Shown here: positions 434-8,113 of the stretch, piece by piece
Layout of the letters: every line of letters begins with the position of its first letter
How positions within the stretch are numbered: the first letter of the stretch is position 1
DNA from: a virus
Length of the DNA: 50,117 nt
Strand: one strand, 5' to 3'
Virus record (IMG/VR): IMGVR_UViG_3300022937_000033
Coordinates: 1 to 50,117 of that record
Notes under the pieces: generated by a model
The model's database searches: none
The model's input: only the letters and a program-made list of their open reading frames with translations
What the model was told of the DNA's origin: nothing
Position numbers and translations under genes: made by a program

Positions 434-850
434 ATGGACACCCGAGTTACCCTGAATCGAGTTGTTAACACTCTGCAATCTGCACTTGATGTTATGACTG
501 ACGCAAGCAATCCTGATGGGCAGGGTTATGCTTATGCTTCTGGATATGCTAGAGGTTCTATGAATCAAGCGATTGACGAATTGTGTGATCTCCTTGATAG
601 TATGGAACCCATTCGTTATAGAGTAACTGAGGTGCAGTTTGACTTTCAAGATGAAGATTTTGAACTGCCTGTGCAACAACAACTTGAGTTGATCCAAGAT
701 TGTAAGAATACTGTGTGGACTGTTGATGAAGAAAGTGAATTGGTTGATGTTATAACTGATCACTACGGATGGTGCGTCCAAAGTATAGAATATGAGGAAC
801 AGGGTGTGCCAGTTGCCGAACCGCCTACCATTCACCCCTTTTTCCCCTGA
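434..850 (+). CDS. hypothetical protein, acidic, 138 aa
   Basis: Reading frame of 138 residues, ATG at 434, following the previous gene by 39 bases with no Shine-Dalgarno sequence. The N-terminal 60 residues look helical (VVNTLQSALDVM, MNQAIDELCDLLDSM); the rest is strongly acidic and ends with a proline-rich tail (EPPTIHPFFP). I do not recognise it. The last 45 bases overlap the upstream part of a promoter-like element (805-868) that recurs elsewhere, so the proline-rich end may be partly shaped by regulatory sequence. Confidence 0.75.
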   Translation: MDTRVTLNRVVNTLQSALDVMTDASNPDGQGYAYASGYARGSMNQAIDELCDLLDSMEPIRYRVTEVQFDFQDEDFELPVQQQLELIQDCKNTVWTVDEESELVDVITDHYGWCVQSIEYEEQGVPVAEPPTIHPFFP

Positions 851-868
851 TGGGTGCCATACTATAAG
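805..868 (+). promoter_or_regulatory. candidate early promoter of the TGTGnCAGT class (divergent copy)
   Basis: TGTGCCAGTT (805-814) is followed 55 bases later by TACTAT (860-865), within the run TACTATAAGGGTC. It aligns well with the element at 2478-2541, including the end of the -10 region. It differs from the other three copies in having 55 rather than 53 bases between box and -10 and in lacking the GCACA block. It would drive the gene at 927. Confidence 0.5.
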
Positions 869-926
869 GGTCGAGAGGGAGAGAGCAATTCTTTCTCTCT
901 CGGTTCACAATCTTACTTCCTGAAGA

Positions 927-1109
927 ATGACCAAAGCACAAGCACTTTCTGAGTTCCGTTATGCCTGGAAAGGCGTTGTTGCTGCCTATCCTAGACTGAA
1001 GAATGACACGGTTTGGAAGCGTGAAGAGTGGAACAGTTTCACCGATGCACTATGCAAAGGTGGAGAGATTACTGAGAATCAATATAACAACTGGACCAAC
1101 CCTTTCTGA
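927..1109 (+). CDS. small WTN-x-F family protein (copy 1)
   Basis: Encodes 60 residues starting MTKAQALSEF and ending NNWTNPF. I recall proteins of this type (TKAQAL at the start, KREEWN in the middle, NWTNPF at the end) as frequent in marine cyanophages; their function is unknown. A diverged paralogue lies at 1919-2086 with the same helical plan and the end RWTNVF. The leader contains ACTTCCTGAA (915-924), three bases before the start codon, in place of a Shine-Dalgarno sequence. The gene follows the candidate promoter at 805-868. Confidence 0.85.
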   Translation: MTKAQALSEFRYAWKGVVAAYPRLKNDTVWKREEWNSFTDALCKGGEITENQYNNWTNPF

Positions 1110-1115
1110 ATACTA

Positions 1116-1361
1116 ATGAAAAACTTCACTGACAATTACTTCACTTTCATTCAAAAGATGATGTTTCACGTTGCTACCATCCTCGCATTTTGGGTTGGTG
1201 TTGTTACTTACGCTGCCAAAGGTGTGCGTGAATGGTATAGCAATGGTGGGCAAGAAAGCATCGCATTGTTCACAATGAAGGTGCTGCAATTCATCAACTC
1301 GGTATCAGAATCCCTCTACTATTCTGTGGAGGAAACTGTAGACATTCCCCGAGAGGTGTGA
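1116..1361 (+). CDS. small membrane protein, 81 aa
   Basis: Encodes 81 residues with one clear hydrophobic segment at about residues 16-34 (MFHVATILAFWVGVVTYAA), so it is probably a single-span inner-membrane protein. The rest is amphipathic, with an acidic C-terminus. It starts six bases after the preceding stop and is probably co-transcribed. Its stop codon lies in the 5' arm of the inverted repeat at 1360-1378. Function not recognised. Confidence 0.75.
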   Translation: MKNFTDNYFTFIQKMMFHVATILAFWVGVVTYAAKGVREWYSNGGQESIALFTMKVLQFINSVSESLYYSVEETVDIPREV

Positions 1362-1415
1362 CAGTTCCCCAAACTGTCTACCAAACCCGCACAGACCCCC
1401 TAAATGCCCTATATT
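1357..1415 (+). promoter_or_regulatory. candidate early promoter, TGTGnCAGT class with inverted repeat
   Basis: TGTGACAGTT begins at 1357. The perfect inverted repeat GACAGTT (1360-1366) / AACTGTC (1372-1378) has a 5-base centre. GCACA starts at 1389 and a -10-like TATATT lies at 1410-1415. The distances from the box (53) and from GCACA (21) to the -10 are identical to those of the copies at 2478 and 3633. There is no TTGACA-like -35. The element overlaps the stop codon of the upstream gene and would drive the genes from 1463 on. Confidence 0.6.
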
Positions 1416-1462
1416 GGTCACATCGGGGGGGACTGCTCCCCACACTTCCTTAAGACTCTCAA

Positions 1463-1690
1463 ATGACTATCACCGTGACCAATCCTGAAGGCAAAAAGTA
1501 TATCTCTCTCGTGGAAGATCGTGCTTTTATGAGTGCAATTCAAGGACTCTACGCTTTCACTGTTGATAACAATGCCGATTGCGATATGGCATACGATTGG
1601 GTATGTGATCAGGCAGAATGTCACTCCTTTGTTTGTGACGGTCCCGCGTGGGATATGTTCTACGATACCTGGGAATCTGCACTCTCCTGA
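1463..1690 (+). CDS. hypothetical acidic protein, 75 aa
   Basis: Encodes 75 residues with many Asp, Trp and Cys in the second half (NADCDMAYDWVCDQAECHSF). The three cysteines and a histidine could form a metal site, but this is only a composition observation. The leader carries ACTTCCTTAA (1444-1453) ten bases before the ATG and no Shine-Dalgarno sequence. The stop codon overlaps the next start codon (TGATG). Not recognised. Confidence 0.75.
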   Translation: MTITVTNPEGKKYISLVEDRAFMSAIQGLYAFTVDNNADCDMAYDWVCDQAECHSFVCDGPAWDMFYDTWESALS

Positions 1691-1917
1691 TGTATTCTGA
1701 TCCCTGCACAATCGCCCTTCAAACTGATAACAAACTGATGACAATTCACAATCCCTACGTTGCAACTCTCGTTGAAATGGGTTACGACGAAGCAGACTGC
1801 CGAGTGGTAGCAAATGCTGGTGTTAAGAAGACTTTTCCCCTTAACATTCACGGTCGCATTTTTGATACTCAAGAGGAGTATGATGAGGCACTCGCTGACT
1901 ACATCAACGGACTCTGA
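1690..1917 (+). CDS. hypothetical protein with UBA-like helical segment
   Basis: I place the start at ATG 1690, which overlaps the previous stop as TGATG and gives 75 residues; an in-frame ATG at 1738 would give 59 residues beginning MTIHNPYV. The segment VATLVEMGYDEADCRVV resembles the first helices and the MG[FY] turn of UBA/TS-N-like three-helix bundles. The C-terminal part (GRIFDTQEEYDEALADYI) is acidic and helical. The UBA resemblance is a weak pattern match. The next gene follows immediately. Confidence 0.65.
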   Translation: MYSDPCTIALQTDNKLMTIHNPYVATLVEMGYDEADCRVVANAGVKKTFPLNIHGRIFDTQEEYDEALADYINGL

Positions 1918-1918
1918 G

Positions 1919-2086
1919 ATGATTACTTCCAAAGCACAAATGCTCAAAATCATTGCAACTTGTGCTCAACCACATACTCTAACCCGAGAGGAAAAGTTTC
2001 AGGTTTTTGTCAATGTGTGTGACAATATGCTTGCTGAGGGTAGACTGAGCAAAGCAAATCACAAACGTTGGACTAACGTTTTCTGA
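1919..2086 (+). CDS. small WTN-x-F family protein (copy 2)
   Basis: Encodes 55 residues from ATG 1919, which overlaps the end of the preceding gene's context by one base after its TGA. A longer reading frame exists upstream but runs through the previous gene. The sequence MITSKAQMLKII at the start and RWTNVF at the end matches the layout of the protein at 927-1109: Lys-Ala-Gln near the N-terminus, a REE motif, a Gly near the middle of the last third, and Trp-Thr-Asn-x-Phe at the end. This indicates a diverged duplicate. Function unknown. Confidence 0.75.
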   Translation: MITSKAQMLKIIATCAQPHTLTREEKFQVFVNVCDNMLAEGRLSKANHKRWTNVF

Positions 2087-2113
2087 TCTAATCAACCACA
2101 CTTCCTTAATACA

Positions 2114-2482
2114 ATGCTGGTCAAACTTTCCTTCCCGTCTAAAACCAAGAAGACTACTTGCATCGCAGTTTATGAGTTTGCAGATGGGCGAACTCTCGAT
2201 GCTTGTGTAGCAACTCTGAAGGCAACTAACGCTAAAAGAGCAAACAAAGAGACCACAACTTTCGAGGTGATTGATTCTCACTCTGGTCCTATCTATCGGT
2301 GGGATACTAATGCTAACAAGTTTGTGAGTGAGCGTAAGCAACTCGAACGTGCTTACTTTACAACCAAGGTGCAAGAATATCGTGCTGTGGTTGATAAAGT
2401 TATTGATGATAAAATCTCCGAGTTCTTTACTGAATGGATGGAAGATTATCGCCTTTTGCATAAACCAATGGGTGCTGTGTGA
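2114..2482 (+). CDS. hypothetical protein, 122 aa
   Basis: Encodes 122 residues, Lys-rich, with a mixed N-terminal half (TTCIAVYEFADGRTLDACVA) and a helical C-terminal half (YRAVVDKVIDDKISEFFTEW). The leader is ACTTCCTTAA (2100-2109), five bases from the ATG. The stop TGA forms part of the inverted repeat of the next promoter element, exactly as for the gene ending at 1361. Not recognised. Confidence 0.75.
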   Translation: MLVKLSFPSKTKKTTCIAVYEFADGRTLDACVATLKATNAKRANKETTTFEVIDSHSGPIYRWDTNANKFVSERKQLERAYFTTKVQEYRAVVDKVIDDKISEFFTEWMEDYRLLHKPMGAV

Positions 2483-2541
2483 CAGTTGGTCAAACTGTCT
2501 ACTAAACCCGCACAAGCGCCCAAAAGCGTGTATTCTATAAG
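2478..2541 (+). promoter_or_regulatory. candidate early promoter, TGTGnCAGT class with inverted repeat
   Basis: TGTGACAGTT begins at 2478. GACAGTT (2481-2487) pairs with AACTGTC (2493-2499) around a centre that differs from the 1360 copy, so the arms are conserved while the loop is not. GCACA starts at 2510 and TATTCT lies at 2531-2536 (or TATAAG at 2536-2541). Positions 2477-2515 match 1356-1394 at nearly every base outside the loop. It would drive the gene at 2562. Confidence 0.6.
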
Positions 2542-2561
2542 AGTCAAAGGAATCGCCCCAA

Positions 2562-3062
2562 ATGACGACACAAACTCCTGAAGCACGTTTCCAACAACTT
2601 TTCGAGGAAATGTATGCTCTATGTGATGAGCAAGGTTGGGGAGATCCCTTCTCTTATGCTCGCTCCCGTGAGATTCACTTAGCAGGCGTTCTTGGACATA
2701 AAGTTGCAGACACCTATTCTGGTGCTGATGCTTATGACGAAGATGGTCCCTGTGAGTATAAATCTACGATCGGTGACAAACTAACTGCAACGTACAATGG
2801 CATTAGTGTACAGAACTCGTGGGAAGAGCAAGAGCGTTACTTGATCGAAGATAAGATCGGTAAGTATCAGAATCACTATTTCGGTCGTTACTCTAACGGC
2901 AAGATTGTTGAGGTTTGGAAGATGGATGCTAACGATGTTCTTGCTGTTCTGCTACCTCAACTGAAGAAGAAGTTTGGTACAGTCAAGAACCGCAAAGATC
3001 CTCGTCTGGGTTACACTATCCCTAACAAGGTTATTAAGCAATTTGCTACCCAAATCATCTGA
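2562..3062 (+). CDS. possible PD-(D/E)XK nuclease-like protein
   Basis: Encodes 166 residues. Residues 45-70 contain GHKVADTYSGADAYD followed by CEYKST, which has the form of a PD-(D/E)XK nuclease core: a conserved Asp (D56 or D59) in SGADAYD and then E65-x-K67 in a hydrophobic strand. An upstream acidic helix (REIHLAGVLG) and a later strand (GKIVEVWKM) fit the fold of restriction-endonuclease-like proteins. The C-terminus is basic (LKKKF, KDPRLGY). The role could be host-DNA degradation or phage DNA processing; that part is inference. It is the first gene after the promoter element at 2478. Confidence 0.6.
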   Translation: MTTQTPEARFQQLFEEMYALCDEQGWGDPFSYARSREIHLAGVLGHKVADTYSGADAYDEDGPCEYKSTIGDKLTATYNGISVQNSWEEQERYLIEDKIGKYQNHYFGRYSNGKIVEVWKMDANDVLAVLLPQLKKKFGTVKNRKDPRLGYTIPNKVIKQFATQII

Positions 3063-3099
3063 CTCTCGTTTCACCTCTCACCGTCACACTTTTCCTCCA

Positions 3100-3279
3100 A
3101 TGATTCAAACTTCCATCGACCTCCTCGCTAACACCTATATGGACAGACTGCAGGAGCACGTTGATAACAATGACATCGCATCTTCTGATGCAATCTTCTC
3201 TGAGTTTGTTGTCGATGGTGTAGATCCTGAGGATGGCAATTACGAGTGGTTGTATGTTCACGACCTGATCAACAACTGA
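3100..3279 (+). CDS. small acidic protein, 59 aa
   Basis: ATG at 3100 gives 59 residues, very acidic (DGVDPEDGNYEWLYVHDLI). A longer frame begins inside the upstream gene, but the pyrimidine-rich leader TTTTCCTCCA directly before this ATG favours the short form. Not recognised. The acidic character is shared with the next gene. Confidence 0.65.
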   Translation: MIQTSIDLLANTYMDRLQEHVDNNDIASSDAIFSEFVVDGVDPEDGNYEWLYVHDLINN

Positions 3280-3319
3280 TCTCTCTGATACACTAACCAC
3301 ACCACACATTTCCCACTTA

Positions 3320-3610
3320 ATGACAATGACTCTCCTGCAAATCGACTCCAATCGCCGTAATGATCTCACCGACACTTATGTGTGGGATATGATCAACCAG
3401 ATGAATAATGATATGCTTGAGCAACTCTGCCACGATCTACTTATGGAGTCTATGACTAATCTTTCTGACTATGAATTGTGTGAGGAAGTGTATGACTACC
3501 TGGGGCAATCTGAAGAGACTTTCAAAGAGTTTGCTGAGCAATGTTTGACTGATGATGAGGTTAACTCCTACTTGGATGATGCTAACGTCGTGAGCGAATC
3601 TCGCAACTAA
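3320..3610 (+). CDS. hypothetical acidic protein, 96 aa
   Basis: Encodes 96 residues, predicted largely helical and rich in Asp, Glu, Met and Asn (MINQMNNDMLEQLCHDLLM). A second ATG two codons later is possible. The leader is CCACACATTTCCCACTTA with no Shine-Dalgarno sequence. No recognised family; small acidic early proteins of phages are often inhibitors or DNA mimics, but nothing here shows that. Confidence 0.75.
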   Translation: MTMTLLQIDSNRRNDLTDTYVWDMINQMNNDMLEQLCHDLLMESMTNLSDYELCEEVYDYLGQSEETFKEFAEQCLTDDEVNSYLDDANVVSESRN

Positions 3611-3632
3611 TTGAAGAGAAATCAAGGGGGGT

Positions 3633-3691
3633 TGTGCCAGTCAACTAAGTGGCACACAACGGTGGCACAGCGCCCCGAAATCGGGTATCTT
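3633..3691 (+). promoter_or_regulatory. candidate early promoter, TGTGnCAGT class with inverted repeat
   Basis: TGTGCCAGT begins at 3633. A different inverted repeat, TGTGCCA (3633-3639) / TGGCACA (3650-3656), surrounds a 10-base centre. GCACA starts at 3665 and TATCTT at 3686-3691. Box-to-(-10) is 53 bases and GCACA-to-(-10) is 21 bases, the same as in the copies at 1357 and 2478. It would drive the genes at 3750 and 4109. The 139-base gap from 3611 to 3749 holds nothing else that I can see. Confidence 0.6.
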
Positions 3692-3749: not shown

Positions 3750-4100
3750 ATGCGTAAGATCGAAAAGCAAATGTGTGCCGCTGTTCAGTCTAACTCTGAC
3801 TGGAAATCTGGTAACACTCGTGTAGAGTTTATCGCTGAAACTGGTGAGTCTAAAGTGTATTTGCACGACAATCTCATCGCTATCATTGATGACACTTCGA
3901 TGCAAATCTTTGACGGTGGTTGGCAGTCTGTGACCACAAAGTCTCGCCTTAATGCACTCTGTGATGAGTTTTGTATTGCTGGCGAAGGAGTTTTTCAACG
4001 CAACTTTAAGTGGTTCGTTCACAAGTTGGTCGGTCAATCTTCCATCACTGGTAAAGTCTTCAACGAAGAACCTTTTGTTAACGGTTACATCTTCGCCTGA
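3750..4100 (+). CDS. hypothetical protein, 116 aa
   Basis: Encodes 116 residues with a strand-rich pattern (TRVEFIAETGESKVYLHDN, LIAIIDDTSMQIFDGGW) and no membrane segment. The start is preceded directly by CTTCTTCAAA (3740-3749), the same leader motif as for the gene at 44. Not recognised. It lies first behind the promoter element at 3633 and eight bases before the next small gene. Confidence 0.75.
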   Translation: MRKIEKQMCAAVQSNSDWKSGNTRVEFIAETGESKVYLHDNLIAIIDDTSMQIFDGGWQSVTTKSRLNALCDEFCIAGEGVFQRNFKWFVHKLVGQSSITGKVFNEEPFVNGYIFA

Positions 4101-4108
4101 GAGTTAGT

Positions 4109-4294
4109 ATGATCAAAGCACTCACAAAACGCCGTTCTGCTAACTACTTCGCGAATCAAGTGAAAGTTCTTCTCCTCATTCTGATTGGTGTCCTTATCTA
4201 TCAATCAAAGGATGCACGATTCTTTATCTCAGACCGCCTCAATGATGCTTCTGAGATGATCCGTCCCGATCCACAGTTCAATTTTCGCTATTGA
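4109..4294 (+). CDS. small membrane protein, 61 aa
   Basis: Encodes 61 residues with a basic N-terminus (KALTKRRSANYF) and one hydrophobic span at about residues 20-33 (VLLLILIGVLIYQ), as in a single-pass inner-membrane protein with its N-terminus in the cytoplasm by the positive-inside rule. It follows the previous gene by eight bases. Transcripts from upstream would end at the terminator at 4322-4346. Confidence 0.75.
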   Translation: MIKALTKRRSANYFANQVKVLLLILIGVLIYQSKDARFFISDRLNDASEMIRPDPQFNFRY

Positions 4295-4319
4295 CAATTA
4301 CAACTAGATAGAGTACACT
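4291..4319 (+). promoter_or_regulatory. sigma70-type promoter TTGACA-N17-TACACT
   Basis: A perfect -35 TTGACA (4291-4296) overlaps the stop codon region of the previous gene. A 17-base spacer leads to TACACT (4314-4319). Initiation would fall near 4326, inside the 5' arm of the terminator hairpin that follows, so transcripts starting here should lack a complete hairpin while read-through transcripts keep it. It would drive the gene at 4360. Confidence 0.7.
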
Positions 4320-4321
4320 TA

Positions 4322-4346
4322 GGGGATCAAAACGATCCTCTTTTTT
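4322..4346 (+). terminator. rho-independent terminator
   Basis: GGGGATC (4322-4328) pairs with GATCCTC (4334-4340) as a 7-bp stem with one G-U pair around the loop AAAAC, followed by six T (4341-4346). It lies downstream of the small membrane protein gene and closes the early gene cluster. Confidence 0.8.
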
Positions 4347-4994: not shown

Positions 4995-5333
4995 ATGAAC
5001 CCATTTACCAAGATTAACGATAATACGTTCAAAGATGCTGAAGGAACGTTATACAAACCCATTCCTAATTACGAGGATTATTATGTCTCTAATACAGGAA
5101 ACATTTACTCCACAAAGTATGGTAAATGGAAACGCCTTAAAACTCATCTCAATGAGAATGGATACAGAAGAGTTACTCTAAGACAGAATGGGCGGACTGT
5201 AGTAAGAAGATGCGCCAGATTAACCGCATTGGCGTTTATACCTACGGAACTCAATGATTGCAACGTTTTTCACATTGATGGGAACAAAGTTAACGATCAT
5301 TCTACTAATCTAAGGTGGGTGAGTTCTGTATAG
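4995..5333 (+). CDS. HNH endonuclease with NUMOD4-like N-terminus
   Basis: Encodes 112 residues, two bases after the oxygenase gene. Residues about 20-45 (YKPIPNYEDYYVSNTGNIYS) match the NUMOD4 DNA-binding motif of phage homing endonucleases. The C-terminal segment VFHIDGNKVNDHSTNLRWVS has the HNH_3 layout with the His, Asn and second Asn in place. It is short for the family (often 150-200 residues), but both conserved parts are present, so I treat it as intact. Such genes are usually free-standing, selfish nucleases in T4-like phages. The stop lies one base before the first TTTTCCACA box. Confidence 0.88.
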   Translation: MNPFTKINDNTFKDAEGTLYKPIPNYEDYYVSNTGNIYSTKYGKWKRLKTHLNENGYRRVTLRQNGRTVVRRCARLTALAFIPTELNDCNVFHIDGNKVNDHSTNLRWVSSV

Positions 5334-5529
5334 TTTTCCACAGGTTTTTCCACAAAGGGGATTATTTTCTGTGGAATAAAAATGGTCTAATAAATATACC
5401 TTACTGTTTTGTTAATCGTGTTAGAATCCCTCTGAGAAGTGCAACCTTAGACTCTACTCTATCGATCGAGAGTTGTCAACACTCAGAGGACACACGAAAA
5501 ACTGTCACAATGGGTTGACTTTTTCCACA
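5334..5529. other. cluster of TTTTCCACA (DnaA-box-like) sites with AT-rich segment
   Basis: Three exact TTTTCCACA sequences occur at 5334-5342, 5346-5354 and 5521-5529, with a one-mismatch inverted copy TGTGGAATA at 5370-5378. TTTTCCACA is, as I recall, the DnaA-box consensus of Synechococcus and differs from the E. coli box at one base. Positions 5361-5420 are AT-rich. There is no convincing gene in 5334-5584. The cluster could be an origin-like region, a host DnaA-controlled regulatory site, or a titration site; this is inference. Confidence 0.5.
5429..5489. repeat. nested inverted repeat
   Basis: CCTCTGAG (5429-5436) is repeated in inverted form as CTCAGAGG (5482-5489). Between them lies a second dyad, ACTCT (5456-5460) / AGAGT (5469-5473), around the palindrome TCGATCGA (5462-5469). 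There is no T-run, so it is not an ordinary terminator. It lies between the AT-rich stretch and the promoter at 5515. Confidence 0.5.
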
Positions 5530-5543
5530 GTCTCCCTTATACT
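5515..5543 (+). promoter_or_regulatory. sigma70-type promoter TTGACT-N17-TATACT with embedded TTTTCCACA
   Basis: TTGACT (5515-5520), a 17-base spacer and TATACT (5538-5543) form a near-consensus promoter for the gene at 5585. The spacer begins with TTTTCCACA (5521-5529), so a protein bound to that box would compete with RNA polymerase. Confidence 0.75.
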
Positions 5544-5584: not shown

Positions 5585-5779
5585 ATGGGTCGCACATACA
5601 AACGGAACGACACTTATAGAAGTAATCGTCCGAAAAGTCTGCGTGAAAAGCGTAACAATCGTCCACGTGGTAAGTATGAACAATTGGACAATTATGAGTC
5701 CAATTCATATAACAAACAGAACAAGACTAATCGACAACAATCGGAGTATGATTTGAATGGAGATGACATCTATGGTTGA
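5585..5779 (+). CDS. small basic, Arg/Asn/Tyr-rich protein
   Basis: Encodes 64 residues dominated by Arg, Asn, Lys, Tyr and Ser with almost no hydrophobic residues (MGRTYKRNDTYRSNRPKS at the start). It is probably disordered and nucleic-acid binding by composition. It sits about 35 bases downstream of the expected start of transcription from the promoter at 5515 and overlaps the acidic gene that follows by eight bases. Not recognised. Confidence 0.7.
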   Translation: MGRTYKRNDTYRSNRPKSLREKRNNRPRGKYEQLDNYESNSYNKQNKTNRQQSEYDLNGDDIYG

Positions 5780-6262: not shown

Positions 6263-6502
6263 ATGAGTCACCTGCAGATAACCTCGGATAATAAAAAAAA
6301 ACTTCCTATATACTGCAAGAATGTAACGGACGGTATCAGAATGTCTCGTAGGTTTATACTAAGTGTTGAAGAGGACGAACACGGGGATTGTTTCATTACA
6401 TTACCCGATGAGTTACTTGATGAACTCGGATGGCAAATTGACGATGTTCTAGAGTATACTGTTGAAGGAGAAAACGTTTATCTCAGTAAAGTTGATGAGT
6501 GA
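6263..6502 (+). CDS. AbrB/MazE-like small protein (putative)
   Basis: Encodes 79 residues from ATG 6263, or 53 from the in-frame ATG 6341 that begins directly at the conserved part. That part, RRFILSVEEDEHGDCFITLP followed by DELLDELGWQIDDVLEYTVE, has the layout of the swapped-hairpin AbrB/SpoVT fold: strand, acidic turn, a LPDELL helix, then GW-x-x-GDVLE-like residues. Similar proteins occur in marine phages, where I recall no proven function. DNA binding as a dimer would be expected if the fold is right. It overlaps the next gene by eight bases (ATGAGTGA). Confidence 0.7.
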   Translation: MSHLQITSDNKKKLPIYCKNVTDGIRMSRRFILSVEEDEHGDCFITLPDELLDELGWQIDDVLEYTVEGENVYLSKVDE

Positions 6503-7294: not shown

Positions 7295-8113
7295 ATGAAA
7301 ACACTGCAACAGCAACTCAATATCGACAATAGAATCGATGCCTATGATTTTTGGCATCTGTATGAACCCAATTTCAATCAACCACGTAGAAGTAGTGCCA
7401 ATATTGAGGTTCGTAAATCGATTGGTTTAGACACTGCTCGTCCTGGTGATTTAATTACCTCTCTAGAGGGAGAGATGTGGCGTATTGCTATTCACGTTGA
7501 GAATGGTCAGGAAGTGACTCTCCCCTGGATGCACGTTTCCAACTTTGGGCGTGTGATTAGTCACGTGTACCCTAGTGCCACTCAGAAGCGTCTTGGCAAG
7601 AGATGGGATCCAACATACCATCGTCTGTGTGACGGCAAGTTGAAGCGTTATAGCGGCACCGATGAGAAGACTTCTGGATGGAAGTTACTTATCAAAATGC
7701 CTCATATGGGGAAGTTGGAACCAGTGTGGTTGGATGACGAATGTACTGTTCAAAGTGCAGCATCCAAACGACAGGAGCGTGATATTGCCATTCACACTTT
7801 AGTTGCAAATACCTGGTACCCTATCTACGAAAATGTACCTGATGTGGATCCTCGAATGCTGAAAGCATTGAGATGGGATACTGCATCTAAGGAAGATAAA
7901 TTGTGGATGCAAGAGTTGTTTGAGGTTGATCATAAGGATCAGAACCCATTAAATAACTATGCCACCAACTTCCGTCGAACTACAGGTAAGGAGAACAATC
8001 GTGCAGCACTACGTGCACGTGGAGGCAACCACGCTAATCATCGTGGTACTACTATCAATGTTGATGTTGAACCATCCAATAATCTTATGGAGTTGTTTAA
8101 TGGAAATTCCTGA
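7295..8113 (+). CDS. HNH endonuclease (putative homing nuclease)
   Basis: Encodes 272 residues. The segment at residues 208-226 (LFEVDHKDQNPLNNYATNF) carries the HNH signature: D-H at 212-213, then two Asn-containing positions spaced as in NPLNNYATNFR. Residues 77-90 (LPWMHVSNFGRVISH) resemble a NUMOD4-like VSN-x-G-R-V-S motif. Between them is a basic region that may bind DNA. It has its own promoter and terminator boundary, as expected for a mobile free-standing gene. The target site is unknown. It overlaps the next gene by 14 bases. Confidence 0.85.
   Translation: MKTLQQQLNIDNRIDAYDFWHLYEPNFNQPRRSSANIEVRKSIGLDTARPGDLITSLEGEMWRIAIHVENGQEVTLPWMHVSNFGRVISHVYPSATQKRLGKRWDPTYHRLCDGKLKRYSGTDEKTSGWKLLIKMPHMGKLEPVWLDDECTVQSAASKRQERDIAIHTLVANTWYPIYENVPDVDPRMLKALRWDTASKEDKLWMQELFEVDHKDQNPLNNYATNFRRTTGKENNRAALRARGGNHANHRGTTINVDVEPSNNLMELFNGNS

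Follow-up and report, generated by a model that had tools for sequence, protein, structure and literature searches.

Promoters activated by P2 Ogr and P4 delta carry a dyad, TGT-N12-ACA, near position -55 and have no -35 element. Among T4-like cyanophages, a novel regulatory element has reportedly been described by Doron et al. (2016, ISME J); it is said to govern early genes in Syn9 and P-TIM40 and to be conserved across the group. Here, we describe a dyad element found upstream of promoter-like -10 hexamers in IMG/VR virus record IMGVR_UViG_3300022937_000033, the whole 50,117-base stretch of which is referred to as the window, and we compare this element with described phage promoters. The nearest named relatives of this record are the T4-like cyanophages S-RIM50, S-RIM8, and S-RIM4, and the window is, judged by its sequence, a T4-like cyanomyovirus contig; its first 13 kb match the small hypothetical genes that form a module before baseplate genes 25 and 6 in Syn9 and S-RIM50.

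Host-like σ70 promoters have been proposed for the early genes of S-PM2 and Syn9, cyanomyoviruses lack motA and asiA, and a 2010 review described the onset of early transcription in T4-like cyanophages, which takes place without Alt, Mod, MotA, and AsiA, as unclear (PMC2984593). T4-like phages also carry PeSL cassettes, which combine an early promoter with a stem-loop (cited in PMC4503421).

Geometry and distribution of the dyad element

An initial annotation of the window had listed four TGTGnCAGT boxes as parts of a promoter architecture that recurs at fixed spacing, and this architecture was found again in the window, in DNA of relatives, in scans of IMG/VR phage loci, and in complete phage genomes. 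All four boxes are present on the plus strand, at 805, 1357, 2478, and 3633 (sites A to D; Table 1), and at sites B, C, and D the box start lies exactly 53 bases, and the start of a GCACA exactly 21 bases, before the -10 hexamer, as had been stated. The box by itself shows no strong enrichment in the window (6 vs. 3.06). Followed by N44 and TATNNT, it occurs three times, whereas 300 first-order Markov shuffles gave a mean of 0.01. Site A had been set apart as an exception with a TACTAT at 55 bases. We take CATACT at 53 bases as its -10 hexamer, and the same context, gggtgcCATACTataag, recurs in Syn9 (47204, at spacing 53) and in S-RIM50 (43128, at spacing 54); site A is therefore treated as a regular member of the class. 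The overlap of two boxes with an upstream stop codon was likewise seen, at sites B and C, and the box of site A falls within the 3' end of an open reading frame (ORF; 434-850). The pairing of promoter D with a Kyano_Gp96 gene is kept in the window, S-RIM50, and Syn9; the dyad of site D is identical in S-RIM50 and has both arms recognizable in Syn9, before the same gene, and the conserved part of the intergenic stretch consists of the dyad, the -10 hexamer, and the start region. A fifth site (site E) had been overlooked by the initial annotation.

Across the class, the unit comprises a dyad of approx. 24 bp, TGTGnCAGTYnnnnRAsTGnCACA (with a second arm that often reads AAsTGTCCAC), a TATnnT at 52-54, and a GT near +1; the logo gives, in order, TGTGnCAGTY, either form of the second arm (AAsTGnCACA or AAsTGTCCAC), a weak GGCACA or TTGACn element at the -35 position, TATnnT, and GT. 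The -10 hexamer is TATAAT-like, as in canonical T4-type σ70 early promoters. From the conserved GT, which lies approx. 12-13 bases past the start of the -10 hexamer, we infer the transcription start site; as the dyad centre is approx. 41.5 bases from the -10 hexamer, the dyad would be centred near -53. Spacing was assessed in IMG/VR loci by scans in which the gap was left free from 34 to 65 and counts were made on non-redundant dyads. Among 122 matches with TATAAT, 110 fell on offsets 52-55 (80 at 53 and 22 at 54); TATTCT showed 41 of 56 matches at 52-54 (8, 15, and 18 at 52, 53, and 54, respectively) and CATACT 13 of 21 at offset 54, and the peak at 53 was not seen with the control hexamers TAATAT and TCTTAT. 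An earlier free-gap scan had placed 55 of 83 matches on just two of 31 gaps. Five TATAAT sites have a spacing of 64 or 65, i.e., one helical turn farther than usual; four of these (L403, L404, L410, and L486) carry a perfect TTGACA and come from a single lineage, to which L396 does not belong. This class, at a distance increased by 11 bases, is suggestive only.

The initial annotation had proposed that the spacing be sought in related cyanophages. In 797 kb of relatives' DNA, gathered by protein similarity without selecting on the motif, TGTGNCAGT was counted 142 times and its reversal 8 times, and TATNNT after the box peaked at offset 53 (24 occurrences, against approx. 1 per position). Motif models trained only on IMG/VR metagenomic phage loci were then applied to complete genomes; these counts include some palindromic sites on both strands. 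Matches numbered 10 in Syn9, 18 in S-PM2, 12 in P-HM2, 11 in P-SSM4, 23 in P-SSM2, 10 in S-RIM50, and 10 in S-RSM4, compared to none in reversed genomes at the threshold used; pelagiphage HTVC008M had a single match. A BLAST search with the consensus matched 149 phage records, all of which are Synechococcus phages or cyanophages, and the strict pattern was not found in T4, P-SSP7, Syn5, or Ma-LMM01. S-TIM5, which represents another lineage, has five promoter-like sites (L366-L374, 163-171 kb of its record) with a spacing of 54 and a diverged right arm (CAGTY...AGTGGCCCA or similar); these sites appear to have the same architecture with an altered half-site.

The sites cluster in the small-gene (early-type) module, with eight of the ten Syn9 sites located in 43-53 kb, and they track gene direction in P-HM2, where genes of an inverted cluster on the minus strand are preceded by sites on that strand (37649, 38174, and 39315). 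The modules of Syn9, P-SSM4, and S-RIM50 lack the late motif NATAAATA, of which approx. 2-3 occurrences would be expected in each. Early timing of the downstream genes is what we infer from this position in the genome.

With regard to the -35 region, the initial annotation had described promoters without a -35 element, which holds for sites B, C, and D but fails for the class as a whole, since at least four of the six TTGACA bases are matched at 16-18 bp in 101 of 271 sites, compared to 27 ± 5 in shuffled spacers. Even so, only these 101 sites approach a canonical -35 element by this measure; the -35 position is occupied by GCACA in some promoters and by TTGACn in others.

Function of the dyad and alternative explanations

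Overall, we consider it probable that these sites are promoters of the small-gene module in T4-like cyanophages, at which host RNA polymerase with its main σ factor would recognize TATnnT, weakly or variably aided by a -35 element, and a dimeric regulator would bind the 24-bp dyad centred approx. 53 bases upstream of the start. This regulator would read TGTGnCAGT and its inverted copy independently as DNA sequence, and it would most likely be phage-encoded and possibly injected. The near-rigid distance between dyad and -10 hexamer, together with the rare alternative one helical turn farther, suggests that the bound protein would contact the polymerase in the manner of a class I/II-type activator, and on these grounds we lean towards activation rather than repression. 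A number of observations weigh against this interpretation. The P-SSM2 module contains six late motifs, which is near expectation, and the P-HM2 module contains one; the class with the longer spacing consists of five sites from about two lineages; and dyad strength is uncorrelated with -35 quality (rho 0.08), giving no sign that the dyad compensates for an absent -35 element. In addition, when 115 small proteins of Syn9 were scanned with Pfam, no recognized DNA-binding regulator domain was found except in an acidic AbrB-fold protein, and a phage-made early activator could work only if it were injected or had a delayed-early role.

A repressor or modulator is still considered because dyad strength and -35 quality do not correlate and because a half-site copy lies over the -35 position in many sites. 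The dyad could be an operator for an early-made phage repressor that shuts the promoters off at the early-to-middle switch, a reading we regard as rather unlikely; it would account for the third half-site-like TGGCACA that overlaps the -35 position in promoter D and many relatives, as well as for strong TTGACn/TATAAT promoters that carry the dyad too, but the dyad centre is upstream of the -35 position and steric occlusion does not need a near-rigid spacing with an alternative one turn farther. A very improbable alternative is that the inverted repeat acts as an RNA hairpin at which the transcript of the upstream gene is terminated or processed, similar to the stem-loop of a PeSL cassette, and that it precedes the promoter by chance. 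The initial annotation had placed every box in an inverted repeat. In favour of a hairpin, three of the four window copies fold well as RNA and two overlap the upstream stop codon; the dyad of site A is weak and gives no RNA fold. However, it had also been thought that the dyad mattered as such, with the arms free to differ, and this was not borne out by 238 sites, in which arm covariation is absent: standard pairs exceed expectation by a few sites at most for any column pair (the largest excess being 124 vs. 116 for columns 4/19; permutation p 0.15), and the commonest pair at columns 7/16 is G-G. Because the arms are statistically independent, it is half-site sequence rather than pairing that is conserved, which is consistent with two half-sites on the DNA being read by a dimeric protein and argues against an RNA hairpin. 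The distance to the -10 hexamer is fixed, no T tract and no predicted terminator were found at the four window sites, and Rfam gave no match; the hairpin or terminator was thus rejected. The similarity of sites B and C over approx. 50 bases could point to an inherited repeat block, or chance, with the four copies being functionless paralogous duplications, but conservation of the same columns extends to hundreds of diverged sites in which the intervening sequence is free, and the probability of this explanation is next to nil.

The suggestion that such a site would suit a DNA-binding regulator encoded by phage or host is supported in its first part; with regard to origin, a phage source is favoured and a host source is not. 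A hijacked host transcription factor, whose binding site the phage would copy for transcription directly after entry, has some appeal, as immediate early promoters require a factor already in the cell and no recognizable regulator was found in the phages; we nevertheless judge it improbable. Only seven of 300 host-family genomes hold any dyad at up to one mismatch, and Synechococcus WH7803 holds none at up to two mismatches. Occurrences of the box followed by TATNNT are scattered in hosts and, among the matches listed, lack a proper second arm, although this pattern alone is too loose to be informative. Given the near-absence of the dyad from the 300 genomes, we consider a host regulator with sites of such quality unlikely and find it more plausible that the reader is encoded by the phage; a host regulon was rejected.

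Several phage proteins were considered as possible readers and set aside, at least as strong candidates. Helix-turn-helix and ribbon-helix-helix regulators were not among the families listed for the 115 small Syn9 proteins. The window (6341-6502) encodes an acidic protein of 53 amino acids with a predicted AbrB/MazE-type fold, the relatives of which include Syn9 gp92 and S-RIM50 R290704_087. This family was found in Syn9, S-PM2, P-SSM2, P-SSM4, S-RIM50, S-RSM4, and the window, and the protein model matches AbrB and MazE with a Foldseek probability of 1.00 but with E values of at least 0.09. The protein is strongly acidic, also at positions that we take to be equivalent to the basic DNA-contact residues of AbrB, and it was not found in P-HM2, though this phage has dyads; it was therefore kept as a weak candidate only. 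It might instead pair with, or mimic the target of, a host AbrB-type protein. Syn9 gp85 (L185:2281-2502) is a very widespread small protein of the module, with relatives in 57 IMG/VR loci and in all seven motif-bearing phages; it was rejected as the regulator, as its predicted structure, a small beta-barrel, has no clear DNA-binding relative. Finally, no Ogr/Delta activator (PF04606) was found above the cut-off in 16 phage records, with one sub-threshold match (E 0.08). A more specific proposal, i.e., that in marine T4-like cyanophages a sequence-specific early transcription factor of no recognized fold, injected or made at once, directs unmodified host polymerase to phage-only promoters through the dyad near -53 and thereby replaces the Alt and MotA routes of T4, is possible but doubtful.

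Promoter-like sites and neighbouring genes in the window

Table 1. Promoter-like sites of the window and associated features; transcription starts (+1) are predicted.
Feature	Position	Strand	Description	Basis
Dyad, site A	805..828	+	TGTGCCAGTTGCCGAACCGCCTAC; second arm weak	Motif-model score 28.1
-10, promoter A	858..863	+	CATACT, 53 bases from box start; +1 approx. 870	Motif models
Dyad, site B	1357..1381	+	TGTGACAGTTCCCCAAACTGTCTAC; arm 2 offset by one base; overlaps stop codon of ORF 1116-1361	
GCACA, promoter B	1389..1393	+	-35 position	
-10, promoter B	1410..1415	+	TATATT; +1 approx. 1422; ORF start 1463	
Dyad, site C	2478..2502	+	TGTGACAGTTGGTCAAACTGTCTAC; overlaps stop codon of ORF 2114-2482	
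GCACA, promoter C	2510..2514	+	-35 position	
-10, promoter C	2531..2536	+	TATTCT; +1 approx. 2543; ORF start 2562	
Dyad, site D	3633..3656	+	TGTGCCAGTCAACTAAGTGGCACA; strongest in the window	Motif-model score 45.8
GCACA, promoter D	3665..3669	+	-35 position; inside TGGCACA (third half-site-like copy)	
-10, promoter D	3686..3691	+	TATCTT; +1 approx. 3698; Kyano_Gp96 ORF start 3750	
Kyano_Gp96 family ORF	3750..4100	+	PF23790; downstream of promoter D	
Site E	5500..5543	+	Second arm AACTGTCACA (5500-5509), TTGACT (5515), N17, TATACT (5538); first arm degenerate; before ORF 5585-5779	Direct reading
Site E, opposite strand	5451..5509	-	TGTGACAGTT, TTGACA, TAGAGT at spacing 53; no clear ORF after	

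The opposite-strand box at site E may represent a divergent promoter or a coincidence. Elsewhere in the small-gene module, two ORFs (4995-5333, which carries a NUMOD4 motif, and 7295-8113) resemble HNH-type endonucleases and are candidates for mobile homing genes, and at the end of the module an ORF at 6634-7185 matches phage DNA endonuclease V (phrog_274), a repair enzyme. A TTGACA-N17-TACACT at 4291-4341 is directly followed by an intrinsic terminator (AGGGGATCAAAACGATCCTCT and a T tract) and then by a 2OG-Fe(II) oxygenase-like ORF; this arrangement looks like a PeSL-type promoter with stem-loop.

Comparison with described systems

With its near single-base spacing, its exact predicted starts, and its near-absence from host genomes, the dyad could serve as bait for finding the regulator, as a means of predicting early operons in metagenomic phages, and as a target for simple test mutations.

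Among described systems, P2 Ogr and P4 delta promoters offer an analogous dyad near -55 that replaces or supplements the -35 element, but the present dyad is TGT-N18-ACA rather than TGT-N12-ACA and has a different inner sequence, the P2 and P4 sites serve late genes whereas the present ones appear to be early-type, and the Ogr/Delta zinc finger was not found above the cut-off. T4 middle promoters, with their MotA box near -30, share a phage-specific element upstream of a σ70 -10 hexamer; the present element differs in sequence and position, and the logo near -30 shows GGCACA or a weak element rather than TGCTTTA. Like PeSL cassettes, the present sites combine an inverted repeat with an early-type promoter between small genes, but the repeat is upstream of the promoter at fixed spacing and shows neither a terminator nor a pairing constraint, so that the four window sites are not stem-loop terminators joined to early promoters. 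Host-like σ70 promoters have in common with the present sites a TATAAT-like -10 hexamer and, probably, unmodified host polymerase; the present sites add a dyad at a fixed upstream distance, and most have no good -35 element.

The closest likeness is to the element that Doron et al. reportedly described. The box sequence was not found in relevant literature among the top matches, and the citing papers examined do not print the motif. That element reportedly shares with the present one its occurrence in T4-like cyanophages, its presence in Syn9 (which has ten of the present sites), and conservation across the group, here seen in Syn9, S-PM2, P-HM2, P-SSM2, P-SSM4, S-RIM50, and S-RSM4. The two are probably the same; what the present analysis adds to that element, as far as checked, is the precise geometry, the non-covariation of the arms, the absence from hosts, the S-TIM5 variant, and the class with a spacing one turn longer.

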